NCBI GenBank assembly: GCA_947650365.1
Contig: OX393549.1
Location: 89,126,156-89,190,155 of the forward strand
From: Chamaelirium japonicum
Taxonomy: Eukaryota > Streptophyta > Magnoliopsida > Liliales > Melanthiaceae
Length of the DNA stretch: 64,000 nt
Direction: 5' to 3'
Position numbers and translations under genes: made by a program. Within the stretch, counting starts at the first letter, position 1, and the number at the start of each line of letters is the position of its first letter. Under the pieces are notes generated by a model. The model saw only the letters and a list, made by a program, of their open reading frames with translations, was not told the DNA's origin and ran no database searches. Positions 10,440-53,300 of the stretch are shown piece by piece.

Positions 10440-12150
10440 TCAATAAAATACCTCTTTTTCTCGAAGTTGAAGTCTCTTGAAATTCTATTCCGCTCGTTCA
10501 AGGCACCTAAAGGCTCCTAGCAACCCAGGTCAACTAAAGACTTCAATTCCGCCCATTCAAGTTGGAAGCTCGAAGTAAAATCGGCTACGCCCTTTTAAGG
10601 GCAACAACACATATGACCAATTACAAATAAAAATCAAGATGACGTATGACAGAAGAGATAAAAGAAGAAAACAAAAAAGACATGGTTCTCATAGACGTTT
10701 TCCCAAATACGAAGGAAGTCGCCAGCGATAAATTTGCTCCATCATGGGAGGGCCCATACGTTATAGAGTACAGAGGCAACAAAGGTTCCTAGAGGCTAGA
10801 CTTTAATTCTGTTAGTTCAAGTCGGAAGCTCGAAGCAAAATCGGCTACACTCTTTCAAAACTAAAGTCCGATAAAAAGGCTCTTAGAAACCTAGGTCAAC
10901 CCAAGACTTCAATTCTGCCAGTTCATGTCGGAAGATCAAAGCAAAATCGGCTACGCCCTTTCAAGTCTAAAGTATGATAAAAAGGATTCTGGCAACCAAG
11001 GTCAACCAAGAGACTTCGATTCCGCATATTCAAGTCGGAAGCTCGAAGCAAAGTCGGGTACATCCTTTCGAGGCTAAAGTCCAATAAAAAGGCTCTTAGC
11101 AACCCAGGTCAACCCAAGACTTCGATTCCGCCAGTTCAAGTTGGAAGCTCAAAGCAAAATCGGCTATGCCCTTTCAAGGCTAAAGCTCAATAAAAAGGCT
11201 CTTGGTAACCCAGATCAAACTAAGCCTTCGATTCTGCCAATTCAAGTTGGAAGCTCGAAGCAATATCGGCTACATCCTTTCAAGACAAAAGTCTGATAAA
11301 AAGACTCATAGCAACCAAGGTCAACCCAAGACTTCGATTATACCAGTTCAAGTTGGAAGCTCGAAGCAAAAGCTATGCCTTTTCAAGGCTAAAGTCCGAT
11401 AAAAAAGCTCCTGGCAACCCAGGTCAAACTAAGTCTTCGATTTCACTAGTTCAAGTTGAAAGCTCGAAGCAAAATCGACTACGCCCTCTTGAAGCTAAAG
11501 CCCGATGAAAAGGCTCCTGACAATCCAGGTCAACCAAAGACATCGATTTCACCCATTCAAGTTGGAAGCTCGAAGCAAATTAGGCTATGCCCTCTCAAGG
11601 AAAAGTCCGATGAAAAGGTTAATAACAATCCAGGTCAACCAAAGAATTTGATTTCACCCATTTAAGTCGAAAGCTTGAAGCAAAATCGGCTACGCCCTCT
11701 CGAGGCAAAAGTCCAATAAAAAGGCTCCTGGCAACCTAGGTCAACCAAAGATTTTGATTCCGCCCATTCAAGTCGGAAGCTTGAAGCAAAATCGGCCACA
11801 CCCTCTTAAGACTAATTTTTGATAAAAAGGCTCCTAGCAACCCAGGTTATTCAAAGACTTCGATTCCGCCCATTCAGGTATAAAGCTCGAAGCAAATTCG
11901 ACTATGCCATCTCAAGATTAAAGTCCGATAAATAGGCTCCTGACAACCCAGGTAAAGCAAAGACTTCGATATCATCCATTCAAGACAGAAGCTTGAAGTA
12001 AAATGGACTACGCCCTCTCAAGGCTAAAGTCCGATAAAAAGACTTCTAGCAACCCAATTTAACTAAAGACTTTGATTCTGCCCATTCAAGTCAGAAGCTC
12101 AAAGCAAAAACGGGATAAAAAGGCTCCTGACAATCCCGGTCAATCAAAGC
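10440..12150 (+). repeat. Tandem repeat block 1, unit about 107 bp
   Basis: Imperfect units carry the landmarks GGAAGCTCGAAGCAAAATCG, GGCTACGCCC, AAGTCCGATAAAAAGG and CAACCCAGGTCAA. They recur about every 105-110 bp, with a dozen or more copies, most regular from 10795 on. Just before, near 10735, lies FAPSWEGPYVI, the GPY signature of gypsy integrase C-termini. The short frames across the block are repeat artefacts. Confidence 0.85.
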
Positions 12151-12179
12151 CATCAACTATACTCATATGAGGTGATGAG

Positions 12180-12920
12180 AATAAGCCAAAAGCCTTGCCC
12201 TTGGCACTCAAAGACAAAGTCTGAGGCAACCAACGCCATGGCACTCGACAAGCCCAAGGCCCTGCCTTTGGCACTTGAAGACAAAGTCCAAGGTGACCAA
12301 CACCACGGCACTCTACAAGCCCAAGGCCCTGCCCTTGGCACTCGAAGACAAAGTTTGAGACGATCATCGCCTTGGCATTCGACAAACCCAAGGCCCTGCC
12401 CTTGGCACTCGAAGACAAAGTCTGAGGCAGGCGTCGTCGCCTGAGTATGCACCAGGTCCAAGGAGGCAGTCTTGATAATTGAAGACAAAGTTCGAGGAAC
12501 GGATCGCCACCTCAACATATACCAAGTCCAGGGAGACTACCTTGGCACTCAAAGAAAAAATCTAAGAAAGGCGTCGCCACCTCGGTATACACCAAGTCCA
12601 AGGAGATAGCCTTGGTACTCGAAGACAAAGTTCGAGGAAGGCATCGCCGCCTCGGCATGCACCAAGTCCAAGGAGATAGCCTTGGAACTCGAATACAAAG
12701 TTTGAGGAAGGCATCGTCGCCTCGGCATACACGTAGTCCAAAGAGACAACCTTGGTACTCGAAGACAAAGTCCGAGGAAGGCGTCATCACCTCGGCATAC
12801 ACCAAGTCCAAGGAGAAAGCTTTGGTACTCAAAGACAAAGTCTGAGGCAAGCGTCGCCGCCTCGGTTTGCAGCAAGTCTAAGGATTCATCCTTGGTACTT
12901 AAAGATAAAATCTGAGAAGC
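12180..12920 (+). repeat. Tandem repeat block 2, unit about 69 bp
   Basis: About eleven units share CTTGGCACTCGAAGACAAAG followed by TCCGAGGAAGGCGTC and CACCAAGTCCAAGGAG. They are unrelated to block 1 in sequence. Overlapping reading frames on both strands are products of the repeat, not genes. Confidence 0.85.
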
Positions 12921-13869
12921 TACCGTTGACGTCTTGACACTCGGGCAAAATTACAAGCTTACTATCTTGGCATGCAACAACAAAGTCCGAGACCGACGTA
13001 TCGACATTTGATCAAAAGTCCAAGCTTAGTCATGTCACTCAGGTCCAAACATCATATTATCACTGATCATCACCCTCTCTCAACGGCTGATGGTTCCAAA
13101 CCAGTGAGGGGGTGGTCGGTCCAACTATGTCAGCGCGTGCTACCCTCCAAGCCGTGACATTCAAAGCAACAGACAGTTGGGAAGCAATCAATCGTCCGCT
13201 ATCAACCGAACTTCAGGCAATGACTGATCGACCAAAGTTCAACATTTTGTGAGAGTTGCCGCAAGAATAATCAATCCCCTGGACCGTCATCGACTAGTAG
13301 CGACCGATCGATCGATTATTGGCCGGGGGTCATGAATGTCCACCCATGCACTCGACACATGATGAATACCGTCAGACTTCGATATTCACCAATTAAAGGT
13401 GACTATGCATATATGCCAAATCACACTCAAGCCTAATCAGATAATTACACTTGCAAACAAGGGACATAGCTATACTATTTCAATACATGGAACCTCTCTA
13501 ACTGGATAGAGATCGTGATATCACTACTTATCAATCAATATGATTCAAGTGGCATCCGCACACAAGGATCATTCAAAGACGAAGAGCCATCTTCCATTGG
13601 GTTGGTTGAATAGCATCTTATCCAAATTTAAGGAGATGGCTGTATAAACTTCACAAGAAAAAAATCCTCCCTCTCATCTAGGGGTGGGCCCGTGATAATC
13701 ATCATGTCATCGCTGGGGCCCGACTGCAGTCCCTAGTGAACACAGTAACTAGGTGCAGTTAGGTGTCGAACAATGACGAGCGAATTATCGTGAGTTGATA
13801 TGTCTAGAGACGCGAGCCGAAAACCAGGCCGGCCCTTTCTTTAAAGTCACCTTCTTATCAGGATGAATA

Positions 13870-16150: not shown

Positions 16151-17240
16151 AATAAAGAAGTCTGGAATGCGGATCCTAAATGATGGCACACCGAAGACCG
16201 GCCAGTTCTGGAACACGTATCCCGAAGCATGGCGCATCGAAGACCGGCCATAATTTGTACAAAAATCTAAATCTGAAACACACATTATGAAGCGTGGCGT
16301 ACTGAAGACCGGATAGAATTCGCTTGAAAAACTAAGTCTAGAATGCGCATCCCAAAGCGTGGCACACCAAAGACTAGCCAGGATTCACCCAAAAAACTAT
16401 GTCTGGAATGTGCACCCCAAAGCATGGTGCACCGAAGACCGACCAAAATTTGCCCGAAAAGTTAAGTCTGGAATGCGCATCCCGAAGCATGGCGCACCAA
16501 AGACCGACCAGAATTTGCCTAAAAAACTAAATCTGGAATGTGCATTCCGAAGCGTGATGCACCGAAGATCGACCATAATTCACCCTAAAAGCTAAGTCTA
16601 GAATACACATCCCGAAGCGTGACGCATTGAATACCAACCAAAATTCGTCCAAAAAACTAAGTCTTGAATACGCATCCCGAAGCATGGCAAATCGATGACC
16701 GACCAGGATTTGCCCGATAAGCTAAATCTAGAACATGCATCCTGCAGCGTGGCGCACAAAAGACCGTCTAGAATTTGTTCGAAAAGCTAAGTCTTCAAAA
16801 CACACCCCAAAGTGTGGTGTATCGAAGACCATCCAAAATTTGCCCAGCTAAGTCTAGAATACGCATCCCGTAGCGTGGCACACTGAAGATCGGCCAGAAT
16901 TTGTCCAAAAAGCTAAGTCTAGACCACACACCCAGAAGTTTGGTGCACCAAAGATCGATCAGAATTCGCCCAAAAAGTTAAGTCTGGAACACACACCCCG
17001 AAGCGTGATGCACCAATGACCGGCTAGAATTCACCCAAAAAGCTAAGTCTGGAACGCGCATCTCGAAGCATGGCACACCGAAGACTTGCCAGAATTCGCC
17101 TGAAAAGTTAAGTCTGGAACACGTATCTCGAAGCATGGCACACCGAATACTGGTCAGAATTCAGTCGAAAAACTAAGTCTGGAATGTGCATCCCGAAGCA
17201 TGGTGCACTGAAGCAAGGCAACAAAAAAACTAAGTCTGAA
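16150..17240 (+). repeat. Tandem repeat block 4, unit about 66 bp
   Basis: Roughly sixteen diverged units contain AAGTCTGGAATGCGCATCCC, GAAGCATGGCGCACCGAAG and ACCGGCCAGAATT. This is the last block before the polypurine tract and 3' LTR. Confidence 0.85.
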
Positions 17241-17412
17241 AAGTCTACAGCCTCGATCTGCGACTGAATTAATAGCTCTGCTAGCTCGAGCCTACCGACT
17301 CCACAGCACCGGGGACTGCTCGAACTTGAGTCACACCGTGCAGCGGGAGCTTCTTTGCACCAAGAGATCCCACCTGACCCACAGAACCCTAGCCCAACTG
17401 GGGAGGGGTAAC

Positions 17413-20348: not shown

Positions 20349-22464
20349 TGTTGGACTTTGTGTTTGACAATGCTAAATACCATTGTATTAGACCTTGGTT
20401 ATTTGAATAATAGGCATTACATCTTTCCAAAGCTTACTCAGTTGTTACTTACTACTTATCCTTTGAGTTGTGCTAGGTGACTCAAGTGTATTGATGAGAT
20501 CAGTACATAGGAGATTTGAGTGTTTCAATTAACACATCTCAGAAGGTTTGCAGTCAGTAATCAAATTAGACACCCGATTTGAAAGTGTAACACTATGGTC
20601 TTCTTGTAATGAATAAATGATTTATTTCAACCATTGGATTAGTTGACTCTAAGCCATATGTGTTGGTGTGTGTTGAGTGCACCAAACTAAATCGAGAGAG
20701 TAAACCAAGTCTAATAAAGTTGTCGCTAATATTATGGTAACTATTCTACTGGTTGACTAAACCCAAATCTCAGGATATCATTTGGACTCTGGATTTGGTA
20801 TTGGTCACTTTAATTTGCCAAACAGTGCGATCTATCGCAAACCAAAATCTAGATAGGTTGGGTGGCTTGCACTAGATACTAGAGAATGGAAATATGCTTG
20901 GAAACTCCTCACTCCTAAAGGGGAGCAAGGTGTCTCCTTATGTAACTTCCATGAAAGACTGATCGTCAGTCTGGCCAGATTCTTCGAAGTAAAGATGATG
21001 ATCACAAGGACTTGGAAAGTTAGGACTCAAGATGGTGTACTATACCGAGAAGGACAGTCTTTTGATTCCGGATAGTTTCACGAACACCAGAAGTAGGAGG
21101 GTTTAAGTACAACACAGTAGAGAAGGGTTCTTGCATAACATCCAATGGACCACGGAGTGCAATCATGATCTAGTAGTGGTTGTGGTCATGGCTAACTGAG
21201 GATGATATGGTCATGAAATGGTCACACACACCTTCAGTTAAAGCCGAGGTCAATGAGCTTCTCATAGATTCCATCTCTTGGCCTATTCATACAGATGAGC
21301 TGCCCGATCCTAGTACATAAGGAGGATTAGGGTTTACTTGAGTCAGGTTTACCTGACCTGACCTTCTAAAGTCCATTCCTTGGGGAATCCTAGTTGGACT
21401 AGGAATCCCATGTGGCACCACTAGTAGGACCCACTAGGGTTGCTTAAGTAGGTCATGCTTCGTAAAGCATGCCAAAGTGTAGATGGTTATGATGCATGGG
21501 ATGTTCATATGAGATATACGCCATCGGACCATGTAATAGAGGAGGGAGGGATCCAAGCTTGATGATGATTCCCCCCCTCGGGAATTAGTCGCCAAGTGGT
21601 GCGACCCATATAGTAGCCAACTATATTAATGGAGAGAAAGGGGATACTCCTCTCTCCATTAAGTGGTCGGCCATATGAGGACCACACCAAGTGGTGGCTG
21701 ACCTATTAATGATGAGGGAATCCCCTCTCTATTAATAACCCCCCCCCCCCCCTTTTCTTGGGATCCCTATCTTTATGGATTTTTGGATAAAGAGGATGAG
21801 GGAGCTCTATCCGTTCCCTTATCCTTATATTTAGGGATTTCGGATAGGGGGTTGGGACGGCTCTATCCATTCCGTTATCCCTATCTCTAGGGATTTCGGA
21901 TAAGGGGGTTAGGGGATCTTTATCCATTTCCTTATTTTTATTTCTATCTCAATCCTTATCTCTATCTCTTGATTAGAGTTTTTATACACCCTAGCCTCCC
22001 CTCCTATGGCTTTTGATGATGAAAATTTTGCCCAATGAGAGAAAGGGAGAGAAGAAAAGAAAGGGAGAAGAGACAAAGAGGAGAAGAGAAGGAAAAAAGC
22101 GAGGCACCTCGCACGGAGTCTTCCTCGTGGGAGAAGAAGGACATGAATCCGAAAGTCGGCTCCCACAATCCATCCAAGCTCATGATGATAATGGGAATAT
22201 GAGATACTCTTGACAGGTTGCGAGGCATTCTTGCTTCATCAACAAATTCATTTTCTATATGAATTCGTGCAACTCTTCTCCTCGGGCATTCAAATGACCC
22301 GAGAGATAATTCTCTAATAATCTTAGGATGGTTGTATGTGCTTTTAATTTGACTGAAAGCCATACATTCATGATTTAGAAAAGGATTATAGCACGACCAT
22401 GATCTGTATTTAATTCTGACACATGAATCGCTTCTGCCGTGCGCTCTAATGCACCAAACCAATA
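20349..22464 (+). repeat. 5' LTR of copia element 1
   Basis: About 2.1 kb, begins TGTTGGACTTTGTG and ends CACCAAACCAATA just before the primer site. It keeps the uninterrupted sequence GGTGTACTATACC at about 21034, which corresponds to the CACTA target in the other LTR. It has a poly-C run near 21741 and diverged triplicated TAGGGATTTCGGATA phrases near 21775-21905. Confidence 0.85.
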
Positions 22465-26873: not shown

Positions 26874-27584
26874 TATTGGACTTTGTGTTCGACAATGCTA
26901 AATATAACTATATTAGACCTTGGTTATTTGAATAATAGACATCATATCTTTTTAGAGCTTACTTAGTTGTTACTTACCACTTATCCTCTGAGTTGTGCTA
27001 GATGACTCAAGTGTATTGATGAAATCAGTACACAAGATATTTGAGTATGCCAGTTCACACATCTCAGAAGGCTCGTAATCAGTAATGAGATTAGACATCT
27101 GACTTGAAAGATTGTAACACTCTAGTCTTCTCGTAATGAAAAGATGGTCTATCCTAACCATTGGTGTAGTTGACTCTAAACCATACATATTGGTGTACGT
27201 TGAGTGCACCAAATGGAATCGAGAGACTAAACCAACTCTATAAAGTTGTTGCTAAGACTATAGTCACTTTTATACTTGTTGACTAAACTCTAGATCTTAG
27301 GATATCCTTTGAACTCTAGATATGGTACTTGTCACTTTAATCTGCCAAACAGTGCGGTCTATCATAGACCTAAATCTAGGTAGGTTGGTTGGCTTGCACT
27401 AGATACTGAAAAATAGAGGCATGCTTAGAAATTCCTCAGTTCTCGAGGGGAGCAAGGTGGCTCCTTGATTAACTTCCATAAAAGGCTGATCATCAAGTCT
27501 GGCCAGACACTTTTAAGTAAAAATAATGATCACAAGGACTTGGAAAGTTATGACTTAGTCAGCTGTCACTACAAGAAATAGGGT

Positions 27585-28490
27585 CTTTACCGACGGACAT
27601 TATTATCACCGTCGGTAATAATACACTTTTTACCGACGGTGACAATAATATCCGTCGGTATTATAACTTCAATTTTTTTAATTTTCTGTGCATATTTATA
27701 CCGACGGTATACATATTTACCGTCGGTAATATACTTTATACCGACGGTAACATATAAACCGTCGGCCAAATGTCATGGTCGTGATATTGTACCGACGGAC
27801 ATTGTAGTTTCGTCGGTATAAACAATGTTACCGACAGCCATAATATCTCCGTCGGCCATATACCGACGGTAATAAAATTTCCGTCGGTAATATTGTCCCG
27901 ACGAAACTCAGTGTAAAAACCGAGCCTCTGGAAAAAAATAGAAGGGAGAGTTTCGTCGTACTATTTACCGACGGACTTAAAAGTTCCGTCGGTATAACTA
28001 ATTAGACCGACGGAAATTATATTTCCGTCGGCACTGTACCGACGGTAATTAATTTTCCGTCGGTAAAATGTTCCGACGGTTCTCAGGGTGCCAAACCGAG
28101 CCTCTGGAAAAAATTATGCCTGAAGTTTGGTCGGGATTATACCGACGGAAATTATATGTCCGTCGGCAATGTACCGACGGTAATTAAGTTTCCGTCGGTA
28201 AAATGTTCCGACGGTTCTCAGGGTGCCAAACCGAGCCTCTGGAAAAAATTGAGCCTGAAGTTTGGTCGGGATTATACCGACGGAAATTATATTTCCGTCG
28301 GCACTGTACCGACGGTAATTAAGTTTCCGTCGGTAAAATGTTCCGACGGTTCTCAGGGTGCGAAACCGAGCCTCTGGAAAAAATTGAACTTGTTAGTCGG
28401 TCGTGGAGTTTTACCGACGGATTGTGATGTACCGTCGGTACAAAACATAGTTTTACCGACGGAGGATAAAATGTCCGTCGGCAAAAACCC
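27585..28490. promoter_or_regulatory. Left subterminal repeat array of the CACTA element
   Basis: About sixteen dyads of the form ACCGACGG, 12-14 AT-rich bases, CCGTCGGT. In En/Spm such subterminal motifs bind the element's own DNA-binding protein and bring the ends together; that role is inferred here. From about 27950 the dyads sit in a higher-order unit with a CTCAGGGTGCCAAACCGAGC spacer that recurs exactly 135 bp apart (TCTCAGG at 28081, 28216 and 28351). Confidence 0.9.
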
Positions 28491-28493
28491 TGT

Positions 28494-28500
28494 TATATAA
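28494..28500 (+). promoter_or_regulatory. Putative TATA box of the transposase gene
   Basis: TATATAA directly follows the last left dyad (ending near 28482) and precedes a CT-rich leader by about 30 bp. This spacing would put transcription start near 28525-28535. Binding at the dyads could therefore also affect transcription. Inferred, not shown. Confidence 0.6.
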
Positions 28501-28524
28501 CCAAACAGTCGAGGTCTTCTTTGA

Positions 28525-28759
28525 TTCTTCTGTTTCGATCTCTCCGGCCGGCGCGCGCCCCTCTCTCAATCTCTCTCTCTCTCTCACCGACCCGACACCC
28601 CGGCGACCCCGTCCCCCTCCGGCAGCCCCGAGATCCCCTCCGGCCACCCATCCCCCTCCCGGCCACCCATCCCCCTCCCGACCTCCGCCCCTCCCCGGCC
28701 TCCCGGCCCTCTCTCTCTCTCCCCCGGCCTCCTCCCCCCCTCCCCGGCCTCCCTAGCCT

Positions 28760-28802
<43 letters not shown>

Positions 28803-30090
28803 CCTCCCCTCACCTGTCTCTCTCTCTCTCGATCCCTTGCACCTCCGGCCGGCCACCCATCACCTCCCTTGCACCTCCGGCCACCCCTCCGCTTTCTCGC
28901 GCCACCGACTGCGACACCAGTGCTCCTCCTCCTTCTCGAGGCCTGCCGACCATCGCTGGTAAACTCCTCCTCCTCCTCCCTTTCCCCCTTCGGTTAATTT
29001 GAATCGGGTAAACCTTCAGCCACCAATTGTATGCTGCCAAGTTAATCATGCTGGCGGAATAGGAAAAACCTTAAGGCTGAATAGCATTTCTCTAATTCTT
29101 ATGGCTCCATTTGTTAAGGGCTAAATATTTTGATAAGTACTTTCTCAAGTATTTTAGAATTATGTAATAAATGTTTCATTTGGCTTGAAGTACGTATCTA
29201 CCATGGTGGTAAATATTAGGGATTTTTTTGTTCAAAATATTATTAATTTTTTAATTGAATAGTGGTTTATCAGAAGTATTTAACACACTAGTGCTCTAAC
29301 AGCCATGTGACAGATTAATTAGTGCCGTAAAGTGGTGTCACGTTATTCGCCGAGTCGACTCGAAACTCGGCCGAGTCGACTCGACTCGGCTGAGTTTCGA
29401 TCCGACTCGGTCCAAAACTCGAGTTTCGATCTGACTCGGTTGAGTTTCGATCCGACTCGAGTTTGTCGGGTTTTAGCCGAGTTGTCGTGTGTACTCGACT
29501 CATTAAGGTTTCGAGTCGAGTCGAGTTTTCGTGTTTTAAAACATTGAATTTTATCCTATCAAAACTGAATTGAATGGGGGAATGGGGGGCAAAATGTAGT
29601 TTTTAGACTAGGGTGAGCGTCGGTTTTGTCGGTCGGTTTCGGTGTGGGTTTTGTCGGTTATATTTTTTTCGGTTTACGAAAAATCAAAACCGAAATCGAA
29701 ACCGAAACCGAAACCGAAATAGTCGGTTTTTGTCGGTTCGGTGTGATATGAGGTATGCTAAAGCCATAAATCTACTCGAGCGACAGAGAGAACCGTCAGA
29801 CCCCAAGTGTTTACTTGATGAGGCTCCCTGACTTGTTGACTTACTGTCGCATAACTTTGGTGCTATGCCTAGCATTCGAACTATCAACAGTTCAAATGCT
29901 GGCCAGCAACCCTAGGTTTACTATGTGACTAGTCTACTCATCATAATACACTCATCCATTAGGGATGTGGATGGCCTGTAGAAGTTTTGGTTCGGTGTTC
30001 CATACCCGGGAACCGAAACCGAAATTGTGCGGAGTCTTATAACATTGTTTGAAATTATATGTCAGGTGTTGTATAGCCAGATAGACGAAG
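28525..30090 (+). other. Putative 5' UTR exon and long leader intron of the transposase
   Basis: 28525-28958 is strongly CT/CG-rich, with a (CT)n run at 28763-28798 and CCGGCC-type phrases, unlike the AT-rich surroundings. A donor GGTAAACTCC at 28959 and an acceptor ATATGTCAG ending at 30065 could remove a 1.1 kb intron, leaving 25 bases before the ATG at 30091. The intron holds an ACTCG-rich stretch (29345-29530) and CCGAAA repeats (29685-29720). The alternating-charge frames across 28453-28997 are artefacts of low complexity. Confidence 0.6.
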
Positions 30091-33000
30091 ATGTCTTCGA
30101 TCGATAAGAGTTGGATGCGTAATTCGAATCGCATGAGCCAAGAGTACAGAGAAGGAGTCAGGAAATTTCTGGATTTTGCATTTGAGCGTCTTGCACCGCT
30201 TGATGGAAAAATTGTGTGTCCCTGTATAGACTGCGGAAGGGTGATTAGGAAGGTTCGAGAGGAATGTGAGGTTGATCTGGTAATGCGTGGCATTGACGTT
30301 ACCTATACCCGTTGGTTCTCGCACGGTGAGGAGCTAGATGCAGTCCCCATGGCAGCTCACGGTGAAACTTCAAACACAGTGATCGCTGATGATAATATTA
30401 ATACAGACGATGACGATGACATGCAGGGTATGATACATGATTTGCAAGGTGGAATAGGCACGGAAACACCGTCAGGTGATCAGCCCAATATCGAAGCGGA
30501 CAAGTTCTACAGATTGCTTAAAGATGCCGAACAACCTCTATACCCGGGGTGTGAGAAGTTTTCAAAACTCTCTTTCACTGTAAAGCTTCTTCATTTGAAG
30601 TGCCTCAATGGTTGGAGTAATAAGTCATTTAATATGTTGGTAGAGTTGCTGAAAGAGGCTTTTCCTATGGGTGAGACAGTACCGAAATCATTCTACGAGG
30701 CGAAGAAGACAATTAAAGATCTCGGTCTGGGTTATGAGAAAATTGATGCATGCGTGAACGATTGTATGTTGTACCGGAAAGAGTACGAACATGCGCGGTC
30801 ATGCCACATATGCGGAGCAACGAGATATAAAGAGACGGATGCCGAGTCTAGTACCAGTCGAAGGAAGAAAAATGTATCTGCAAAGGTTCTCCTATACTTC
30901 CCGCTCAGGGACAGGCTTCAGAGGTTGTTTATGTCATCGAAGACTGCTGAGCACATGAGGTGGCATGCACGAGAACGTACAGATGACGGGATTATGAGAC
31001 ATCCGGCCGACTCTCTGACGTGGAAAGATTTTGATCATACATATCCTGAATTCGCATGTGAAGTTCGCAACGTCAGGTTAGGGCTTGCTAGCGATGGCTT
31101 CAATCCCTTTGGGAATATGAGTGTGTCGTACAGCATTTGGCCAGTTGTCCTAGTTCCATACAATTTGCCTCCCTGGATGTGCTTAAAAAAGCCATACACA
31201 ATGCTCTCCTTGCTCATTCCCGGACCCAGGTCGCCTGGTAATGATATTGACGTTTACTTGCAGCCGTTGATTGAGGAGTTGAACGAGTTATGGGAAGTTG
31301 GGGCCGATACGTATGATGCCTCGTTGCGCCAGAATTTTCGGATGCATGCGGCACTTCTATGGACCATCAACGATTTTCCTGCATATGCCAACTTATCCGG
31401 GTGGAGTACTAAAGGAAAATTGGCGTGCCCTACATGCAATAAGGAGACAGATTCATTACGATTGAAGAACGGAGGCAAGTTCTGTTATATGGGCCATCGA
31501 AGATTCCTTGTTGACGGCCATAAGTGGAGGCAGAACAAAAGAGCTTTCAACGGCAAGAAGGAACTTGCAAAGGCCCCGGAGCAGCTTTCGGGGGTAGAAG
31601 TCTTGTGCGAATTGGATCAGCTTGATGCCGTGGCACTTGGAAAAGGTAAAAAGAAGAGAACGCATGAAGATTCAACGCGTGAGCATAACTGGAAGAAGAA
31701 GAGTATTTTCTTTAAACTACCGTACTGGAGCAGCCTACTCTTGCGGCATAACTTGGATGTCATGCATATTGAGAAAAATGTGTGTGACAACATTATAGGA
31801 ACACTGCTGAATCTCGACGGTAAGACGAAGGATAATCTTAAATCTCGTCTCGATCTTAAGGAGTTGGGCATCCGAAAATCACTTCATCCCCAAGAGATTG
31901 GGGATAAGTATGTGTTGCCAGTTGCATGCTACACCATGAGCTCACAGCAAAAGGCAGCCTTATGTGCATTCCTACGGTCTGTGAAAACGCCAGACGGTTA
32001 TTCTTCGAATATCGCACGATGCGTGCAAGAGAACGGCCGGAAGTTGTCTGGATTAAAGAGCCACGATTGTCATGTTCTTATGCAGCGATTGTTATCTCTT
32101 GCTATACGTGGGAATTTAACCGAAGAGGTGTCCGGTCCGTTAATTGAGCTCAGCACTTTTTTCAGACAGTTGTGCTCGAAGGTACTTAGAGTGGACCAAC
32201 TTGAACAGATGGAGAGGGATATTGCGCTCACATTGTGCAAGTTAGAGATGATATTTCCACCTTCATTCTTTGATGTCATGGTGCATTTGACCGTTCACTT
32301 GGCAAATGAGGCCAAACTCGGCGGCCCAGTTCATTACCGGTGGATGTATTTTATCGAGAGGTAATCGTCTCGTCTCATTCGCACAATGTATTTGATCGTT
32401 CTTGATATATTCATACAAATATTTTTTTCTCAAATTAGGTACTTGCGAACATTGAAATCATATGTTCGTAATAAAAGTCGTCCGGAGGGATCAATTGCTG
32501 AAGGATACCTAGCAGAAGAATGTCTAACATTCTGCTCAAGATACCTACATGGTATAGACACGCGATTCAATCAACTTGAGCGGAACTATGACGGTGGTCC
32601 AATAGACTTCGATGGGGGTCTGTCTATATTTGCCGAAATGGGTAGACCTGTAGGAGGAGGCAAAACCCGTCGATTGTCTGTAGATGAGATTCAACAGGCA
32701 CATATGTATGTGTTGCGCCAATGTGATGAAGTGTGGCCATTCATTGAGTAAGCATTTTACGATCATTTACTCATTCTTTCAGTCCATTCATTAAGTATAT
32801 GTGCTAATTATAATCTAATTCATAACCGGTAAAACAGGAAGCATAAAGCCATCATTAATAATCGGGGTATTCGAAATGCTCCCCAAATTCATGATCGTGA
32901 ATTCCCATCGTGGTTCGAGAAACACGTAAGTATTCACATCATTACTGAATTTCATTGACATCCATTACCGAACAATAATTATGTGTTCATATCATGAATG

Positions 33001-33692
33001 TCGTGTGGTTATTATAGGCACAGGAGCTGCACGACAACCACGATCCGCTGATGAATGAGGATCTCTGGCGCTTATCTTGTAGTCCTTTGCAAGACGCAAT
33101 ATCGTACGATGGTTATATCGTGAACGGTTATAGATTTCGGACGAAAGATAGTGAAAAATCACGAAGAACCCAAAATAGTGGGGTTGTCGTCAACGGTGAG
33201 CAAGAAGAATTAGAAAATATCGACTTCTACGGCGTCCTCAACGAGATTCTCGAGATTAAATTCCTTGGCCAAAATCGGATCGTATTATTCAAATGCGATT
33301 GGTATGATGTTAATAATCGCGGGACTGGTTATAATGTCGACAAATACGGTTTTATCAGCATCAACACTGCCAAGAGATTGAATACCCAATATGAAGATCC
33401 ATTCATTCTTGCCTCTCAAGCGCAACAGATATTTTATGCACCGGATAATACCTCTCCAGGTTGGCAAATTGTAGTCAGGTCACCACCCAGAGATTTTTAC
33501 GACATGGGAGACAAGGATGCGGGGGTCGTCGATGATGATTTCGATGCATACCAGAATGATGAGATAATCATTGTCGACGCAGTGCACGACGAAAATGAAG
33601 ATGTCGACAATATAAACTGGACAGCGAATGCAGATCAAATAATAGAAGAGGGAAGCGATGAGAGTGACAGAGATGAGACAGAAAATGACTAG
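30091..33692 (+). CDS. CACTA transposase, TNP2-like, five-exon gene (four coding exons)
   Basis: It would catalyse excision and integration of the CACTA element in the nucleus. Coding exons 30091-32360, 32439-32747, 32838-32925 and 33018-33692 join in one frame for 1113 residues. All introns have GT...AG ends (GTAATC, GTAAGC and GTAAGT donors; TTAG, ACAG and ATAG acceptors). The N-terminus has the transposase-associated domain (DKSWM at 5, C43-P-C45-x2-C48, RWFSHGE near 74). HICGATRYK lies near 239. The Transposase_21 core spans roughly 300-600, with CPTCN near 446 and LDVMHIEKNVCDN near 553. DUF4218 crosses the first coding-intron junction (VHYRWMYFIER, then YLRTLKSYVRNK), and DUF4216 follows near 955-1040 (FYGVLNEILEIKF, FKCDWYDV). 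The tail is acidic. Length and order match intact family members. The start ATG follows the leader acceptor and is the first in frame. Catalytic competence is unproven. Confidence 0.93.
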
Positions 33693-33699
33693 ACCGTAT

Positions 33700-33870
33700 G
33701 TAAATCAAATTGTTTCATATTTAAATCAAATTGTTTCATATATAAATCATATTGTTTCATATGTATATCATATTGTTTCATATGTAAATCATACCGTTTC
33801 ACCGATTCATATGTAAATCATACCGTTTCATATGTAAATCATACCGTTTCACCGATTTACGATCCGACCG
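33700..33870. repeat. Short tandem repeat after the transposase
   Basis: Units of about 19 bp with TCATATGTAAATCATA and TTGTTTCATA or CCGTTTCA variants, beginning eight bases after the stop codon and running into the 181-bp array. They probably form part of the 3' UTR. Confidence 0.85.
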
Positions 33871-33874
33871 ATTC

Positions 33875-35330
33875 ACCGATTTAGAGTCTAAGAGTTGGAA
33901 AATCATAAGTTAGCGTGTTTCGGATATGAAATAGGTTTCGATTCGATCGGATCGTCATCGGATCGGCATCCGATAATTCGAAGTTGGATTTATTCCGTAT
34001 TTCGGACTTGCGAGCGGGTTCTAATTGGATATTTGACCAATTTACGCTCCGATTCATCGATTTAGAGTCTAAGTGTTGGAAAATCATAAGTTAGCGTGTT
34101 TCGGATATGAAATAGGTTTGGATTCGATCGGATCGTCATCGGCTCGGCATCCGGTAATTCGAACTTGGAATTATTCCGTATTTCGGACTTGCGAGCGGGT
34201 TCTAATTGGATATTTGACCAATTTAGAACCCGCTCGCAAGTCCGAAATACGGAATAATTCAATTAGAACCCGCTCGCAAGTCCGAAATACGGAATAATTC
34301 CAAGTTCGAATTACCGGATGCCGAGCCGATGACGATCGGATCGAATCCAAACCTATTTCATATCCGAAACACGCTAACTTATGATTTTCCAACACTTAGA
34401 CTCTAAATCGGTGAATCGGAGCGTAAATTGGTCAAATATCCAATTAGAACCCGCTCGCAAGTCCGAAATACGGAATAATTCCAAGTTCGAAGTACCGGAT
34501 GCCGAGCCGATGACGATCGGATCGAATCCAAACCTATTTCATATCCGAAACACGCTAACTTATGATTTTCCAACGCTTAGACTCTAAATCGGTGAATCGG
34601 AGCGTAAATTGGTCAAATATCCAATTAGAACCCGCTCGCAAGTCCGAAATACGGAATAATTCCAAGTTCGAATTATCGGATGCCGAGCCGATGACGATCG
34701 GATCGAATCCAAACCTATTTCATATCCGAAACACGCTAACTTATGATTTTCCAACGCTTAGACTCTAAATCGGTGAATCGGAGCGTAAATTGGTCAAATA
34801 TCCAATTAGAACCCGCTCGCAAGTCCGAAATACGGAATAATTCCAACTTCGAATTACCGGATGCCGATCCGATGACGATCGGATCGAATCTAAACCTATT
34901 TCATATCCGAAACACGCTAACTTATGATTTTCCAACACTTAGACTCTAAATCGGTGAATCGGAGCGTAAATTGGTCAAATATCCAATTAGAACCCGCTCG
35001 CAAGTCCGAAATACGGAATAATTCCAAGTTCGAATTATCGAATGCCGAGCCGATGACGATCGGATCGAATCCAAACCTATTTCATATCCGAAACACGCTA
35101 ACTTATGATTTTCCAACACTTAGACTCTAAATCGGTGAATCGGAGCGTAAATTGGTCAAATATCCAATTAGAACCCGCTCGCAAGTCCGAAATACGGAAT
35201 AATTCCAAGTTCAAATTACCGGATGTCGAGTCGATGACGATCGGATCGAATCCAAACCTATTTCAAAATCGAAACACGCTAACTTATCATTTTTTAACGC
35301 TTAGACTCAGTTATAGATATAAACCATTTT
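33875..35330. repeat. 181-bp tandem array with an orientation switch
   Basis: Units contain AGACTCTAAATCGGTGAATC, ATTAGAACCCGCTCGCAAG, CGAAATACGGAATAATTCC and ATGACGATCGGATCGAATCC. The first two units (33875-34224) are on the minus strand. From 34225 on the units are on the plus strand, with a 36-bp partial copy at the switch, then near-identical copies 181 bp apart starting at 34381, 34562, 34743, 34924 and 35105, the last one diverging. The repeated 68-residue frames are artefacts, since 181 is not a multiple of three. The two arms could fold back on each other. Confidence 0.92.
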
Positions 35331-35354
35331 TTTAACAAATACATGTTAATTGCA

Positions 35355-35487
35355 GGAGCAGGGCGGCGTCAGGGGATCGATGAGAGCACCAGCGTTGGTG
35401 GTGGGCGGGCGTGGTTGAGATAGGGCGGCGTCAGGGGATCGATGAGAGCACCGGCGTTGGTGGCGGGCGGGGGTGGTTGAGATAGGA
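35355..35487 (+). repeat. GC-rich 62-bp duplication behind a splice-acceptor-like site
   Basis: After TTAATTGCAG a GC-rich block (GGGCGGCGTCAGGGGATCGA, GAGAGCACC, GTTGGTGG, GGGCGTGGTTGAGATA) occurs twice, 62 bp apart, in AT-rich surroundings. It could be the remains of a terminal exon, of a second element gene, or captured sequence. I do not recognise it. Simple GGTAATATTTGATAAATTGT repeats follow at 35580-35690. Confidence 0.6.
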
Positions 35488-35754
35488 CATGTATCATCTC
35501 TCAGTTCTGGATTGTGTAAATATTGTTTTGTAATATATGGTTATTTTTTCTTCTATCTATAATTGTCGGTCGGGAACTGTGGTAATATTTGATAATTTGC
35601 TGTAATTTTTTATCAATTTAGGTAATATTTTATAAATTGTGGTAATATTTGATAAATTGTGGTAATATTTGATAAATTGTGGTAATATATTGTGGTATTG
35701 AATCACAGGAATTAAATAACATTATTTATGTAAATTTATTAAAAAAAAAAGATA

Positions 35755-36335
35755 CTTATTACCGACGGAAATAAATTATTCCGTCGGTAATAATATTTTT
35801 ATTTTTTTTAAATTATTAATGATTTGCCGACGGCATATAATATCCGTCGGTAATATATATAGTATTACCGACGGGTAATATATATATCCGTCGGTAATAT
35901 ATATAGTATTACCGACGGGTAATATATATATCCGTCGGTAATATATATAGTATTACCGACGGTGATATTAATTTGGTCGGTAATATATATATTATTACCG
36001 ACGGGTAATATATATATGTGTCGGTAATATATATAGTATTACCGACAGTATAAACTATACTCGTCGGTAAAATGTTTATATATTACCGACGGATTCTTAT
36101 AGTTCGTCGGCAATACTATATTATATTAGTTTTAAATTGATTAAATATTACCGACGGCGTTCTAATTACCGTCGGTATTAATTATTAATACCGACGGTAA
36201 TATTTGGTCCGTCGTATTGTTTTCCCCGACGCCTTTTTTCCCGACAGCCAGCGACGGAAATATCTTCCGTCGCTATATAATATTACCGACGAAATTTTAA
36301 TATTACCGACGGATATTGTCCGTCGGTAATAACTG
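35755..36335. promoter_or_regulatory. Right subterminal repeat array of the CACTA element
   Basis: About twelve dyads of ACCGACGG and CCGTCGGT type, 12-14 bp apart, with local tandem duplication of a TATTACCGACGGGTAATATA unit near 35870-36045. It lacks the GAGCCTCTGG spacer of the left array. Diverged motifs (CGACAG, GTGTCGG, TTGGTCGG) occur on this side. Confidence 0.9.
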
Positions 36336-37818
36336 TTTTTTTTGTAGTGTGTACTATACTGGGAGGGATAGTCTTTTGATCCCGGATAGTTTCATGGACA
36401 CCGAAAGTAGGACGGGTTAAATACAACACAGTGGAGAAGAATTCTTACATAATATCCAATAGACCACGGAGTGCAGTCCTGACCTAGTAGTGGTTGTGGT
36501 CATGGCTAACTGAGGATGGTGTAGTTATGAGATGGTCGCACACACCTTCAGTTGGAGTCGAGGTTATAAAGCTTCTTCTAGATTTCATCTCCTAGCCTAT
36601 TCATACAAATAAGTTGCCTGATCCTAGTGTACGACTAGTGCATGAGGAGGATTAGGATTTACTTGAGTCAAATTTACCTGACCAGACCTTTTAAAGTCCA
36701 TTCCTTAGGGATCCTAGTTGAACTAGGAATCACAGGTGGCACCACTAGTAGGACCCACTAAGGTTGCGTTAGTGGGACATGCTCCAAAAAGCATGCCAAA
36801 GTGTAGGTGGTTATGCCGCATGGGTTGTGCACATGAGATGTGTGTCATCGGACCATGTAATAGAGGAGGGAAGGATCCAAGCTCGATGAAAATTCCCTTC
36901 CCCTCAGGGATTAGTCGCCAATTGGTGCGAGCCATATAGTGGTCGACCATATTAATGGAAAGAGAGGGAATACTCCATACTCTTCTCTCCATTAAGTGGC
37001 TGGCCATGTGGGGCCCACACCAAGTGGTGGTCGGCCTATTAATAGAGAGGGAATCCCTTCTCTCCATTAATAAACACCCCCCCCCCCTTTTGGATCCTTA
37101 TCTCTAGGGATTTCGGATAAAGGGGATGGGGGAGCTCTATCCGTTCCCTTTTTCTTATTTATAGGGATTTCGGATAAGGGGGTTGGGAGAGCTCTATTTG
37201 TTCCCTTTATTTCTATCTCTAGAGATTTTGGATAAGGGGGTTAGGGAAACTTTATCCGCTCCCTCATCCATATCTCTACCTCAATCCTTATCTCTATCTT
37301 GATCTTTATATCTTGATAATGGTTTTTATAAACTCTAGCTACCCCTCTTATGGCTTTTGATGATGCAAATTTCGGCCAAGGAGAGAAGGGGAGTGAAGAG
37401 AAGAAAGGGAGAAGAGAGAAACAGGAGAAGAGGAGAAGGGAAAAGAGAGGCACCTCGCACGAAGTCTTTCTCGTAGGAGACGAAGGATATGGATCCGGAA
37501 GTCGGCTCTCATAAGCCATCCAAGTTCATGATGAGGATGAGAATAGGAGATGCTCTCGATGGGTTACGAGGTGCTCTTGCTTCATCAACAAATTCATCTT
37601 CTACCAAGATGAATTTATACGGCTCTTCACCTCGGCATTCGTAAGACCCGAGAGGTAATTCTTTGATAATCTTTTGATGGTTGCATGCGCTTTTAATTTG
37701 ATTGAAATCCAGCCGTTCACGATCTATAAAAAGAATATAGCATGACTACGATCCATATTGAATTCCGACACGTGAATCGTTTCCGTCGCACACTCCAATG
37801 CACCAAACCAACACCCTG

Positions 37819-39282: not shown

Positions 39283-41218
39283 TATTGGAATTAAATCCTA
39301 TTATCAGAGTCGCAACGGAAGCAAAAGATAGATCCAAGGATCTCATAGTATATGTTTCATTACAATCTATCTTTCAAACAACCTACATGCAAATCTATGA
39401 TCCTAGCATATATGCGGACACCCTAGAGCCATATTACGATCTATAAAAGACATGCATGCATCTAGTTAGATGTATAGAATCATCATACCTTATGGATCTT
39501 TGATCCAAAGAGAATGGAATGATGATTGAACCGCACGTGTATGGCGAGGGAAGCTGTCTGATAGCACCTTCTCCTTTGCGAAGAGAGGAATCATCGAAGT
39601 CCTATCTCTAAGTGCAAAGACTATGAGCTGATGGATGATGACGTTACAAAGACGATAAAGCTCCAAAGCCTTCTCTTCTCTTTCTCTCTTCTTCCTTCTC
39701 CTTCCTTCCTCCTTCTTCTTCCTCTTTCTTCCTTGGCCGAAACCACAAAGAGGGAGAGAGGAGAGGGGGGCGGTTTTTCTAAAGAGAGGGAGAGCTAGGA
39801 CCAGCCCCTTGTCCCCCTATTCCTCTTATAGGGCCGGCCCCCTAGTACTTTACGCATGCTAGGGCTAGCCCCTTAAAGATAGGGATGAGGAGGGGCGGTT
39901 TTTAGGGCTTCTCCTTATCTTCTGTGGCCTAGATGAAAACGCCATCACAAAAAGGGATCACCGTAAGAGAGATAGAATGAGGTGCGCTACTCGGAATCGA
40001 GTTCGGTCAGCGCCTATGAGCTCCTGGAATTATTCCGCTTATTTTAAAATCGATATTCAATATGTTCTAAGCTATATTTTAGTATTTACCAAAATACTCC
40101 TATAACCCTTTAACATATGTGAATTAGGTTCTTAGGCTTCGGGCTTGTGCTTCATCACGTTACTTTGCATCCATCGTGTCTAACTAAGTAGGGGAACAAT
40201 TCCTATACGTAACGACAGGGTGAAACCTTTAGAGTTCAGGATCTCTAGCTCCAACCGGATCCCTGATTAACTGTTCTGGTGACACATCGAAAGTTCTTCT
40301 AATCAGTCCTAATTTGATTAACCAGTGTAGCCACCTAGAGTACAACACGAGTTAAACTATAGTGATCCTAAACTTATGTTACTCCCTCGTAACCCTGTTC
40401 TATACTATACTCTGATAATCTTTAGTCTTTCCTATTACTGGTGCCATAATTCGACTCGGGCAATAGGGAGCACCGTCAGATCTCGATCGATCATCTGACT
40501 AGGATTTGATGTATTGTCATCTATAACACCACACACCTTCCGGTGCTATACCTAGCATCCGGAATATCGTCAGTCATACTGACAACCACCAGGACTTGAT
40601 TAATTATATGAACAGATTGACTCATCAAAATGCACCCATCCAACACTGGACGTCGGATAACCTGTAGGGATTATATGCTACTCTAGCGCCAGCCGGATAA
40701 CCCAATGTATCGTAATATTGGACTATGAAGGATTCATACACATTGGCACATCAAAGCACCACAAAGCCGGTTGGCTCAGTGTACATGGTACCTTAGGGTT
40801 AAGGATAAATTATCTATAGTAGTAAAACGATTTATGCACCAGTGTCTGAATCATTGAACTGTGCATTGTGTTGGTTCCTGTTCAACACAATCATCGTGCT
40901 TGGTCAGATGAATGGGAATCCCGTGTTCCCATAAAGGAGACTTCACCACGTCTTCTACCTACCAAAAGCTTATTCTCGGTGAAGCAATCAGCATCACCAA
41001 AGCTGTGAACTAGTTCTAGGTCTACGCAGAACCGATCAACTGAATCTCCCAAGTATGGACCCATCATGTGCCTCAGTGGCCTACTGTGTTCCCTAGGGTC
41101 CTTTAATATATATGAATTATCATACACCAAAGTAGTATTCTAATTAAAGAAATAACCAAAGTCATATTTATTAATGTTAATAAAGAAAATCCACGCTCAT
41201 GACACATTAGCTACAACA
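39283..41218 (-). repeat. 3' LTR of copia element 2 (left on plus strand)
   Basis: 1936 bp, plus-strand start TATTGGAATTAAATCC and end TTAGCTACAACA. Includes a CTTCTTCC-rich run near 39690-39735 and a block with GCCAGCCGGATAACCCA near 40690. Confidence 0.87.
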
Positions 41219-47852: not shown

Positions 47853-49785
47853 TGTTGGAATTAAAACCTATTATCAGAGTCGCAGTGGAAGCAAAAGATA
47901 GTCCTAGGATCTCATGGTGTATGTTTCATTACAATCTATCTTTCAAACAATCTATATTCAAATCTATGATCCTAGAATATGTGCGGACACCCTAGAGGCA
48001 TACTACGGAAGATAAACATACATCTGTTAGATATTTAGAATCATCATACTTTATGGATTTGATCCAAAGAGAATGGAACGATGATTAAACTGCATGTGTA
48101 TTGCGAGGAAAGCTGTCGGATAACACCTTATCCTTTACGAAGGGAGGAATCCTCGAAGTCCTATCACTGAGTGCAAGGACTACCAACCGACGGATGATCA
48201 CGTTGCGAAGATGATGATGCTCCAAATTCTTCTCTTTTTCTCTTCTTCCTTCTCCTTCCTTCCTCCTTCTTCCTTCTTCTTCCTCTTTCTTTCTTAGTCG
48301 AAACCACAAAGAGGGAGAGAGGAGAGGGGGGCGGTTTTTCTAGAGAGAGGGAGAGCTAGGGCTGGCCCTTTCTCCCCCTATTCTTCTTATAGGGCTGGCC
48401 CCCTAGTGCTTTATACATACTAGGGCTGACCCCTTAGAGATAGGTATGAGGGGGGGTGGTTTTTAGCGCTTCTCCTTATCTTCCGTGGCCTGGATGAAAA
48501 CGCCCTCACGAAAAGGAAGCACTATAAGAGAGATAGAGTGAGGTGCGCTACTCGAAATCGAGTTCCGTCAGTGCCTAGGAGCTCTTAAAATTATTCTGCT
48601 CATTTTAAGATCCATATTCAATATGTTTTGAGTCATATTTTTGTATTTACCAAAATACCCCTATGGCCCCTTAACACATGTGAATTAGGTTCTTAGGCTT
48701 CAGGCTTGTGCTCTATTGCGCTACTTTGCATCCAACGTGTCCAACTAGATCGGGAACAGTTCTTATACATAACGACAGGGTGGAACCTTTCGGGTTCAGG
48801 ATCTCTAGCTCCAACCGAATCCCTGATTAAATGTTCTGCTGACACACCAAAAGTTTCGCTAATAAGCCCTGATCTGATTAGCCCGTGTAGCCACCCCGAG
48901 TACGACGTGAGTTGAACTCTAGTGATCCTAAACTTATGTTACTCCCTTGTAACCCTTTTCTCTACTATATACTGATAATCTTTAGTCCCTGCTATTACTG
49001 GTACCATGATTCGACTCGTGCGATGCGGAGCACCATCAGATCCTGATCATCATCTAATTAGGATTTGATGACTTGTCATCTATAACACCACACACCTTCT
49101 GGTACTATGCCTAGCATCCAGAACGTTGTTGGTCATACTGACAACCACCAGTCCTGGATTAATTATGTGGATAGATTGACGTACTCATCAAAATGCACCC
49201 ATCCAACACTGGATGTCGGATAACTTGTAGGAATTACATGCCATTCTAGAGCCAGCCGGGTAACCCAACATACCATGGTATTAGACTATGAAGGGTCCAC
49301 ACATGGTTGCACATCAAAGCACCACATAGCCGGTTAGCTCAGTGTACATAGTCCCTCAGGATTACGGATTGATTATCTATAGTAGTAAGACGGTTTATGC
49401 ACCAGTGTCTGAATCATTGAACTGTGCATTGTCTTGGTTCTTGTTCAACATGATCATCATTCTTGGTTAAGTGAATGGGAATCCCGTATTCCCATGGTAG
49501 AGATTTCACCACATCCTCTACTTGCCAATAGTTTATTCTCGGTGAAGCGATCAGCATCATCAAAGCTATGAACTAGTTATAGGTCTACGTAGAATCGGTC
49601 CACTGGATCTCCCAAGCATGGACCCACCGGGCATGCATCTCAGTGGCCTACTGTGTTCCCTAGGGTCCTTTAATATATATGAACTATCATACACCAAAGT
49701 AGTATTCTAAGTAAAGCAATAACCAAAGTTATATTTATTAATATTAATACATAAAATCCACGCTCAGGACACACGAGCTACAACA
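47853..49785 (-). repeat. 5' LTR of copia element 2 (right on plus strand)
   Basis: 1933 bp, plus-strand start TGTTGGAATTAAAACC and end GAGCTACAACA. Collinear with 39283-41218, with the same CT-rich run and GCCAGCCGGGTAACCCA block. Confidence 0.87.
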
Positions 49786-51966: not shown

Positions 51967-53300
51967 ATGACCAAAGAGAAGACCACCATGGGTAGCATGA
52001 AGATTGATTTCAAGCAGTTTGACGGGACGACCAATTTCACGCTATGACAGAGTAAGATGAGGAATATTTTGATACATGAAGATCTCCTTATGTGTATTAT
52101 GGACAAAGAGCATGCACCGAATGAGACGATGGCTAAAGCATGGGTGAAAGCCGATCATAAGGCGATGAGTTCCATAGAGCTTCATCTGTCGGATGAAGTC
52201 ATGTATAGTTTCATGGAAGAAATATCGGGTAAAGGCACTTGGGAGAAGTTGCAGTCACTGTACATGGAAAAATCCATCTCAAACAAATTGTTTTTGAAGG
52301 ATAAACTATATGATCTGTGTATGGATGAATACATGGATCTGATGGAGCACCTGAACCATTTTAATTGTTATATTTCAGATCTTCTGTGGGTAAAGGTGAA
52401 GTATGAGGACGATGACAAGGCACTGCTCTTGTTACGATCTTTTCCACCGTCCTACAAGCACTTCAGGAACACCCTGATGTTCAGCAAGGAGACTCTCAAG
52501 TTTGAGGAGGTTATCCAGCAATCATCTCCCATGCAAAGATGTGCAAGAATACGGGAGAAGATACGAAAGGTGCGGGACTCATTGTGAAGATCTCTCATGA
52601 TCATCGAGGCCAATCGAAGGACAGGCGTGCCAGAAGCCAGAGCCGTTCGATGTCCATGGGATGATCAAAGAATCTAAAGTACTTTCACTATGGGAAGAAA
52701 TGCCATATCAAGAGATATTGTTTCGAATTGCAAGACGAGACAAAGGAAAAGGGGAAGAAGATGGAGAACTCTGACATAGCGGGTGTTATTTCGCATAATG
52801 GCAATAGCGAGTTGCTCTCCGTATCCTCAGGTATATCCTCATCTCAGTGGAACATTGATAGTGGTTGTACGTTCCATATGTGTGCAAACAGGGATTGGTT
52901 CGACACATATAAGGAGAAGAACTACGACGCAGTTCTTATGGGGAACAACTCCTCTTACAAGGTGGTAGGTATGAAAACAGTAAAATTGAAGATGAACAAT
53001 GGTAAGATTCGTTCGCTCGGGAGTGTAAGGCACGTTCCAGCTCTTAAGAAGAAGCTTACTTCCTTGGGTACCCTGGATGCAAACGGGTATGTCTACTCAT
53101 CGGGAGATGGGAAGATCAATGTTACTAAGGGATCACTGGTGGTGATGAGACGAGAGAGGCAGGCGAACAATTTGTATAGACTATCTGGGAGTACAGTCTT
53201 AGGTGGAGTGGTAGCCTCCACAAATATCAGTTCAGATCAAGATCCGGCTTTGCTTTTGTATCAGAAGCTGGGCCACATGAGCGAAAAGGGGCTGTAGGAA
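51967..53300 (+). pseudogene. gag and protease region of copia element 3 (fossil)
   Basis: The gag start lies near 51967 (MTKEKTTMGSMKIDFKQF). The UBN2-like gag body follows at 52057-52570 (TWEKLQSLYMEKSISNKLFL, LLRSFPPSYKHFRNTL), a zinc-knuckle remnant near 52685 (YGKKCHIKRYC), and the protease/pre-integrase segment at 52840-53300 (WNIDSGCTFHMCANRDWF, LYQKLGHMSEKGL). These are features of Tork-like copia elements. Broken. Confidence 0.82.

Follow-up and report, generated by a model that had tools for sequence, protein, structure and literature searches.

We present an analysis of a transposon lying in a 64,000-nucleotide stretch of the Chamaelirium japonicum genome (assembly GCA_947650365.1, contig OX393549.1, positions 89,126,156 to 89,190,155), which we call the window. 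The element is a CACTA transposon of 8.8 kb at 27567-36349. A first-pass annotation described it as complete-looking and autonomous. We believe, with high confidence, that it is instead an internal-deletion derivative of a two-gene CACTA family of the En/Spm type, which has kept the transposase gene TNP2, is probably non-autonomous and can probably be mobilised by its siblings. The wider lesson is that an open transposase and perfect ends do not make an element autonomous once a second gene has been lost, and such a loss is visible solely by comparing copies within the genome.

The argument begins with a longer sibling, pieced together from loci L013 and L029, that is 14,234 bp long and flanked by the duplication CAG. 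Over its first 6.66 kb a single gap, and not one mismatch, sets it apart from the window copy; over its last 2.10 kb there is one mismatch besides one gap. The extra middle consists, in order, of a forward array of a 181-bp satellite, a gene that we call gene 2, and an inverted array of the same satellite. Gene 2 lies 3' of TNP2 on the same strand and has six exons with GT...AG introns. It encodes 427 amino acids and matches the Pfam domain Transposase_24 (E 3e-15), so its product is TNPA/TNP1-like. In the siblings the trinucleotide CAG directly precedes the gene-2 ATG; this suggests, by analogy with En/Spm, that gene 2 may be joined to a shared upstream leader exon by alternative splicing.

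Twenty copies (L009-L028) were fetched for comparison, selected for a first 201 bp that is 100% identical to the window copy. They were drawn from the best 40 of 2,073 candidates, one of which was the window copy and 19 of which were never fetched whole. Because the copies were chosen this way, intactness and youth are overestimated for the family as a whole. Gene 2 is open with all splice sites in every one of the 11 copies in which it can be read whole (L013, the model, included), and in the same 11 the upstream array is forward and the downstream array inverted. Wherever a forward array is visible, it has between 5 and 18 matches to the monomer. In four of the other nine copies the fetched locus stops partway through gene 2, and five have no exact gene-2 start: L020, L021 (where the array reaches nearly to the locus end), L022, L023 and L028. 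In L020 part of gene 2 and the neighbouring array are reversed, as expected if the inverted arrays had rearranged with each other.

Exact markers place hundreds of copies of this family in the 1.52-Gb host genome. A 35-base marker for the 5' end has 322 matches, a 36-base TNP2 marker has 457 and a 35-base gene-2 marker has 573, the commonest of the three; the reversed-pattern control for each gave none. Both ends are exact in 17 copies, 13 of which are 12.9-22.3 kb long (sizes derived from end positions). A 3-bp duplication is found in 15 of the 17, namely the window copy (8.8 kb, TGT), L013 (14.2 kb, CAG), L028 (6.8 kb, ATC) and, with a perfect duplication, 12 of the 14 others, a set that spans 8.8 to 22.3 kb. 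Of the two copies lacking it, one is 22.3 kb long and the other has the same 3' flank as a copy nearby. The latter and its neighbour are 15.5-kb copies 74 kb apart (G000:C2:10218084-10233585 and 10291738-10307237) with a shared 3' flank and different 5' flanks; the second, which has no duplication, is a recombinant or an assembly effect.

The next question is which arrangement came first. Three satellite clusters that lack exact markers nearby were fetched in part, and all proved to be diverged copies of the element, about 94-97% identical. Jointly they show the end of TNP2, the forward array, gene 2, the inverted array and the 3' region. Because copies only 94-97% alike already have it, we take the arrangement of array, gene 2 and array to be the older one, with gene 2 ancestral and the window copy a derivative. 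The opposite history, in which gene 2 was inserted into the siblings, was rejected for the same reason.

The window copy has neither gene 2 nor much of either array. What is left are two stumps fused into a palindrome with 344-nucleotide arms, 97% complementary and 45 nucleotides apart. The junction occurs once in the genome and in none of the 20 fetched copies. The window derivative was also considered as a successful lineage, and this was rejected since its junction is unique. The description of the element as complete is therefore lost: gene 2 is gone across a deletion junction of its own, while most complete relatives are longer and the relatives have the gene. Parts are missing from L022, L023 and L028 as well, and the deletions of L023 and L028 are private, with a breakpoint in coding sequence.

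Could the deletion be an artefact, with gene 2 present at the locus and the inverted arrays collapsed by the assembler? Near-identical inverted arrays are hard to assemble, and the breakpoint does lie inside them. Other copies were assembled through longer arrays, however, the junction has its own 40-bp direct repeat, the window contains no N, and the private deletions in L023 and L028 break in coding sequence. We regard an artefact as most improbable.

Our account of how the family works is modelled on En/Spm. Longer members have a gene for TNP2 (Transposase_21) and, 3' of it on the same strand, one for the TNPA/TNP1-like protein (Transposase_24). The latter would attach to the subterminal ACCGACGG repeats and bring the two ends of the element together, and TNP2 would make the cuts at the CACTA termini and insert the element anew with a 3-bp duplication. 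The window copy probably lost gene 2 through a deletion whose two breakpoints fell within the arrays, which fused the stumps; the likely cause is gap repair that was aborted, or a switch of template from one array to the other. Siblings with both genes would make both proteins, and the window copy would depend on them for the gene-2 product. It is probably mobilisable by these siblings because it has kept its ends, its subterminal repeats and an open TNP2, and it may itself supply TNP2. According to PMC2613891, En/Spm cannot do without either TNPD or TNPA, and each of the two can work in trans on deletion derivatives. We infer the loss of autonomy, the mobilisation in trans, the manner of the deletion and any activity today.

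Several points weigh against this conclusion. The requirement for gene 2 is carried over from En/Spm and may not hold here. CACTA architectures with recognised domains in open reading frame 1 only (CDA type 1) are reported as widespread (PMC8978399). On contig C1, 36 of the 54 TNP2 markers have a gene-2 marker downstream within 9 kb on the same strand and one has it on the opposite strand; for the remaining 17, one of which is the window's, the 9 kb downstream hold no exact gene-2 marker, although the pairing used exact markers and some of the 17 may carry merely a point change. One could argue from these observations that TNP2 alone suffices, that gene 2 is an accessory and that the window copy is autonomous, since its TNP2 is open with four Pfam domains and both ends and the target duplication are intact. 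We think this very unlikely. All 11 copies in which gene 2 could be read whole have it intact, its start is more frequent than the TNP2 and 5'-end markers, the junction that lacks it has never multiplied beyond one copy, and the En/Spm precedent demands both proteins (PMC2613891). A second gene with the TNPA/TNP1 function is what sets apart an autonomous two-gene element of the En/Spm type, and the window copy does not have one. The claim of autonomy therefore probably fails for this copy, given that gene 2 is absent here, intact in its siblings and needed in En/Spm.

The assignment to the CACTA (En/Spm, CMC) superfamily is supported by the CACTA termini, the 3-bp duplication, the dense subterminal repeats and the Transposase_21 domain. 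The matching termini noted at first pass hold up well, as CACTACAARAAA has just two exact sites in the window, one at each end of the element. The dense subterminal dyads are equally real: ACCGACGG or its complement occurs at 39 sites in the element, all within the outer 1 kb of either end, and at 4 sites in the other 55 kb of the window. The TGT on both sides is a real target duplication because the flanks, joined with a single TGT, match unbroken across the junction at 40 of 40 scored places (of 228 candidates) with 83-91% identity.

The structure proposed for TNP2 is likewise borne out by the sequence. Its four coding exons join in one frame of 1113 amino acids with GT...AG introns of 78, 90 and 92 bp, and this is the longest protein among the GT/AG combinations tried near the predicted sites. 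Pfam finds Transposase_21 (E 3.8e-102), DUF4218 (5.6e-58), DUF4216 (7.3e-23) and Transpos_assoc (7.4e-20). The three coding junctions predicted earlier fit this frame, while the fourth, 28958/30066, has GT...AG but lies in the 5' leader, where the dinucleotides are its only mark. The candidate DDE triad, placed by motif, is D335, D556 and E756, which we take to be the residues that these motifs correspond to. The first intron falls in codon 757, adjoining this presumed catalytic E756. An ancestral CACTA transposase of four exons has been proposed, with the first boundary at or near the E of the DDE triad (PMC4158355), and the window TNP2 resembles it in having four coding exons and a boundary beside the presumed E. 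Nor is an open TNP2 unusual here. Of the 20 fetched copies 15 have one, and in 11 of these every base of the 3,605-bp region agrees with the window copy; two others have a premature stop and three lack part of the gene.

The fused arrays raise a different possibility. If transcribed they would be expected, on a folding model, to form a very stable hairpin: the RNA fold of 33868-34600 reaches -621 kcal/mol, while the mean of 20 shuffles is -195. The TNP2 stop codon ends 175 bp ahead of the inverted repeat, so read-through from TNP2 might produce hairpin RNA and from it small interfering RNA against the arrays, which would silence the family in trans, much as Mu killer does in maize (PMC3440606). 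Such a role for the window copy is compatible with its being a deletion derivative. We nevertheless find it very doubtful, since inverted arrays are found in the longer siblings too, at a wider spacing, so that a hairpin of this kind is not peculiar to the window copy, and the target would be the satellite and not a promoter or coding sequence.

The family has moved very recently, because five copies at unrelated sites share their sequence without a substitution. The window copy, L011, L013, L016 and L021 show none over 6,150 bp, indels not counted. Among the other 13 copies in the distance matrix, from which L022, L023 and L028 were left out as their middle is deleted, 11 differ from the window copy by 1-9 substitutions and L012 and L025 by 27-28. 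The 400-bp 5' flanks are unrelated except for one weak match (L024 and L028, 68%). We take a rate of 1.3e-8 substitutions per site and year. At this rate the absence of change suggests transposition less than about 19,000 years ago, a date for the youngest group only, among copies picked for an identical first 201 bp. The family may be active today. The suggestion that this locus is a candidate mobile source was a fair guess for the family, which is amplified and has very young members, but this copy is probably not an autonomous source.

The satellite deserves attention of its own. An exact 34-base satellite marker has 23,868 sites, which with a unit of 181 bp comes to about 4.3 Mb. On C1 the first 100 sites listed form seven clusters, all in or beside copies of the family. 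Four are beside exact family markers, and the other three are the partly fetched copies described above. No free-standing array was found among these first 100 sites. Because all seven clusters examined sit in or beside its copies, the transposon appears, from these sites, to be the vehicle of the satellite. It is tempting to go further and propose that the inverted arrays are an old, maintained working part that regulates gene 2 or restrains the family by hairpin RNA, that copies with fused arms and no gene 2 are natural silencers, and that the transposon is the main spreader of the satellite. We consider this whole picture unlikely as it stands. What matters is that the family multiplies a satellite as inverted pairs, so that a link between a DNA transposon, satellite spread and hairpin silencing can be tested directly in one species.

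The element splits a long direct repeat whose uninterrupted sister lies at 20351-22462 in the same orientation, 82% identical. The decayed region between the two repeats holds a frame that resembles a copia integrase, judged by eye. After the upstream repeat comes TGGTATCAGA, presumably a methionine-tRNA primer site. On this sequence evidence the CACTA copy probably sits inside a decayed copia-like retroelement, in its downstream long terminal repeat. The joined-flank matches, one of which falls inside the window itself, are paralogous empty sites. No allelic empty site for the window copy was found at 97% identity or above among the 40 scored matches, and none was found for the copy at C1:13941369 when one was looked for. 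A copy elsewhere has a different sort of target. L023 (G000:C4:6457251-6467287, minus strand) is a 10-kb internally deleted copy with the duplication AGG, set in exon-like sequence that looks by eye like the end of a SEC14/patellin-like protein, a segment repeated in the genome. Its joined flank has a 98% match over its full length on C5, a paralogous empty site. A near-identical relative of the same target at G000:C11:65982158-65982535 covers query positions 136-216 twice with adjoining pieces, a short tandem duplication around the L023 insertion point.

Other repeats are found in the window. Three direct-repeat pairs, 85-87% identical and about 8.56 kb apart, link 39682-40919 to 48243-49482 and may be another pair of long terminal repeats. 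At 52048-53294 there are open frames with the domains Retrotran_gag_2 (copia-type gag, E 1.7e-28) and Pol_BBD (E 5.1e-27). Tandem arrays, by now diverged, lie at 10509-12154, 12370-12929 and 16198-17273; their units measure about 106, 70 and 65 bp, respectively.

Table 1. Coordinates, in the window, of the CACTA element, its parts and its insertion target.
Feature	Position	Strand	Remark
Insertion target, long direct repeat split by the element	26876..37811 (26876-27566 + 36350-37811)	+	
Left target-site duplication	27564..27566		TGT
5' terminal inverted repeat	27567..27578	+	CACTACAAGAAA
5' subterminal region	27585..28490		ACCGACGG/CCGTCGGT dyads at high density, some of them within 135-bp tandem units
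Predicted 5' leader intron	28959..30065	+	GT...AG, from dinucleotides alone
TNP2 coding exon 1	30091..32360	+	Transpos_assoc, Transposase_21, first part of DUF4218
TNP2 coding exon 2	32439..32747	+	Remainder of DUF4218
TNP2 coding exon 3	32838..32925	+	
TNP2 coding exon 4	33018..33692	+	DUF4216; stop codon 33690-33692
Forward 181-bp satellite array stump	33868..34225	+	2 units
Deletion junction, forward array fused to inverted array	34223..34262		40-bp direct repeat; site of gene 2 in relatives
Inverted 181-bp satellite array stump	34260..35308	-	5.8 units
3' subterminal region	35760..36330		ACCGACGG dyads
3' terminal inverted repeat	36338..36349	-	CACTACAAAAAA on the minus strand
Right target-site duplication	36350..36352		TGT

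The closest known systems are En/Spm of maize and Tam1 of Antirrhinum. They share with our family the CACTA termini, the 3-bp target duplication and the subterminal repeats, and with the longer siblings they also share a TNP2/TNPD-type gene followed downstream on the same strand by a second gene with many exons. The window copy differs from both in having the TNP2 gene only. The classic non-autonomous elements are deletion derivatives that are mobilised in trans (PMC2613891). The longer siblings, 13 of the 17 complete copies, exceed the 8.3-kb Spm, and the extra length is mainly satellite arrays in the one copy read whole (L013 plus L029). For Tam1 the same source (PMC2613891) states a length of 17 kb. 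Tgmt* of soybean is described there as a 20.5-kb putative autonomous CACTA element with both tnp2 and TNP1 functions, whose smaller transcripts join a portion of the first exon to one far away. It is like the longer siblings in being large and in having both functions, which for the siblings are predicted. The two differ in that Tgmt* has both in one gene, as cDNA showed, whereas the siblings have two separate frames read from DNA alone and the window copy has one.

For the satellite the best comparison is Jozin of Chenopodium quinoa, a 16.5-kb CACTA element with an array of 32.5 units of a 171-bp monomer between its coding region and its 3' end, and with its satellite dispersed along the chromosomes (PMC8978399). 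Both carry a long tandem array inside a CACTA element, but Jozin has one array near the 3' end, while our family has two opposed arrays of a 181-bp monomer with a Transposase_24 gene between them and numbers hundreds of copies by exact markers. Where the paper on Jozin speaks of "inverted orientation" it means subterminal units only (PMC8978399). Satellite monomers derived from a tnp2 fragment are already known as well (PMC7320549). For the palindrome the comparison is Mu killer, a rearranged transposon derivative with a long inverted repeat (PMC3440606). The window copy is likewise a rearranged derivative containing such a repeat, but the inverted part of Mu killer is transposase gene and terminal repeat, while here it is satellite. 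In the part of the literature that was covered, no report of a CACTA element whose second gene is flanked by a pair of inverted satellite arrays came up, and this speaks only weakly for novelty. Taken alone, the window copy is a deletion derivative of the ordinary sort. CACTA elements with an internal satellite array are known already; it is the pairing of inverted arrays around the second gene that looks new.

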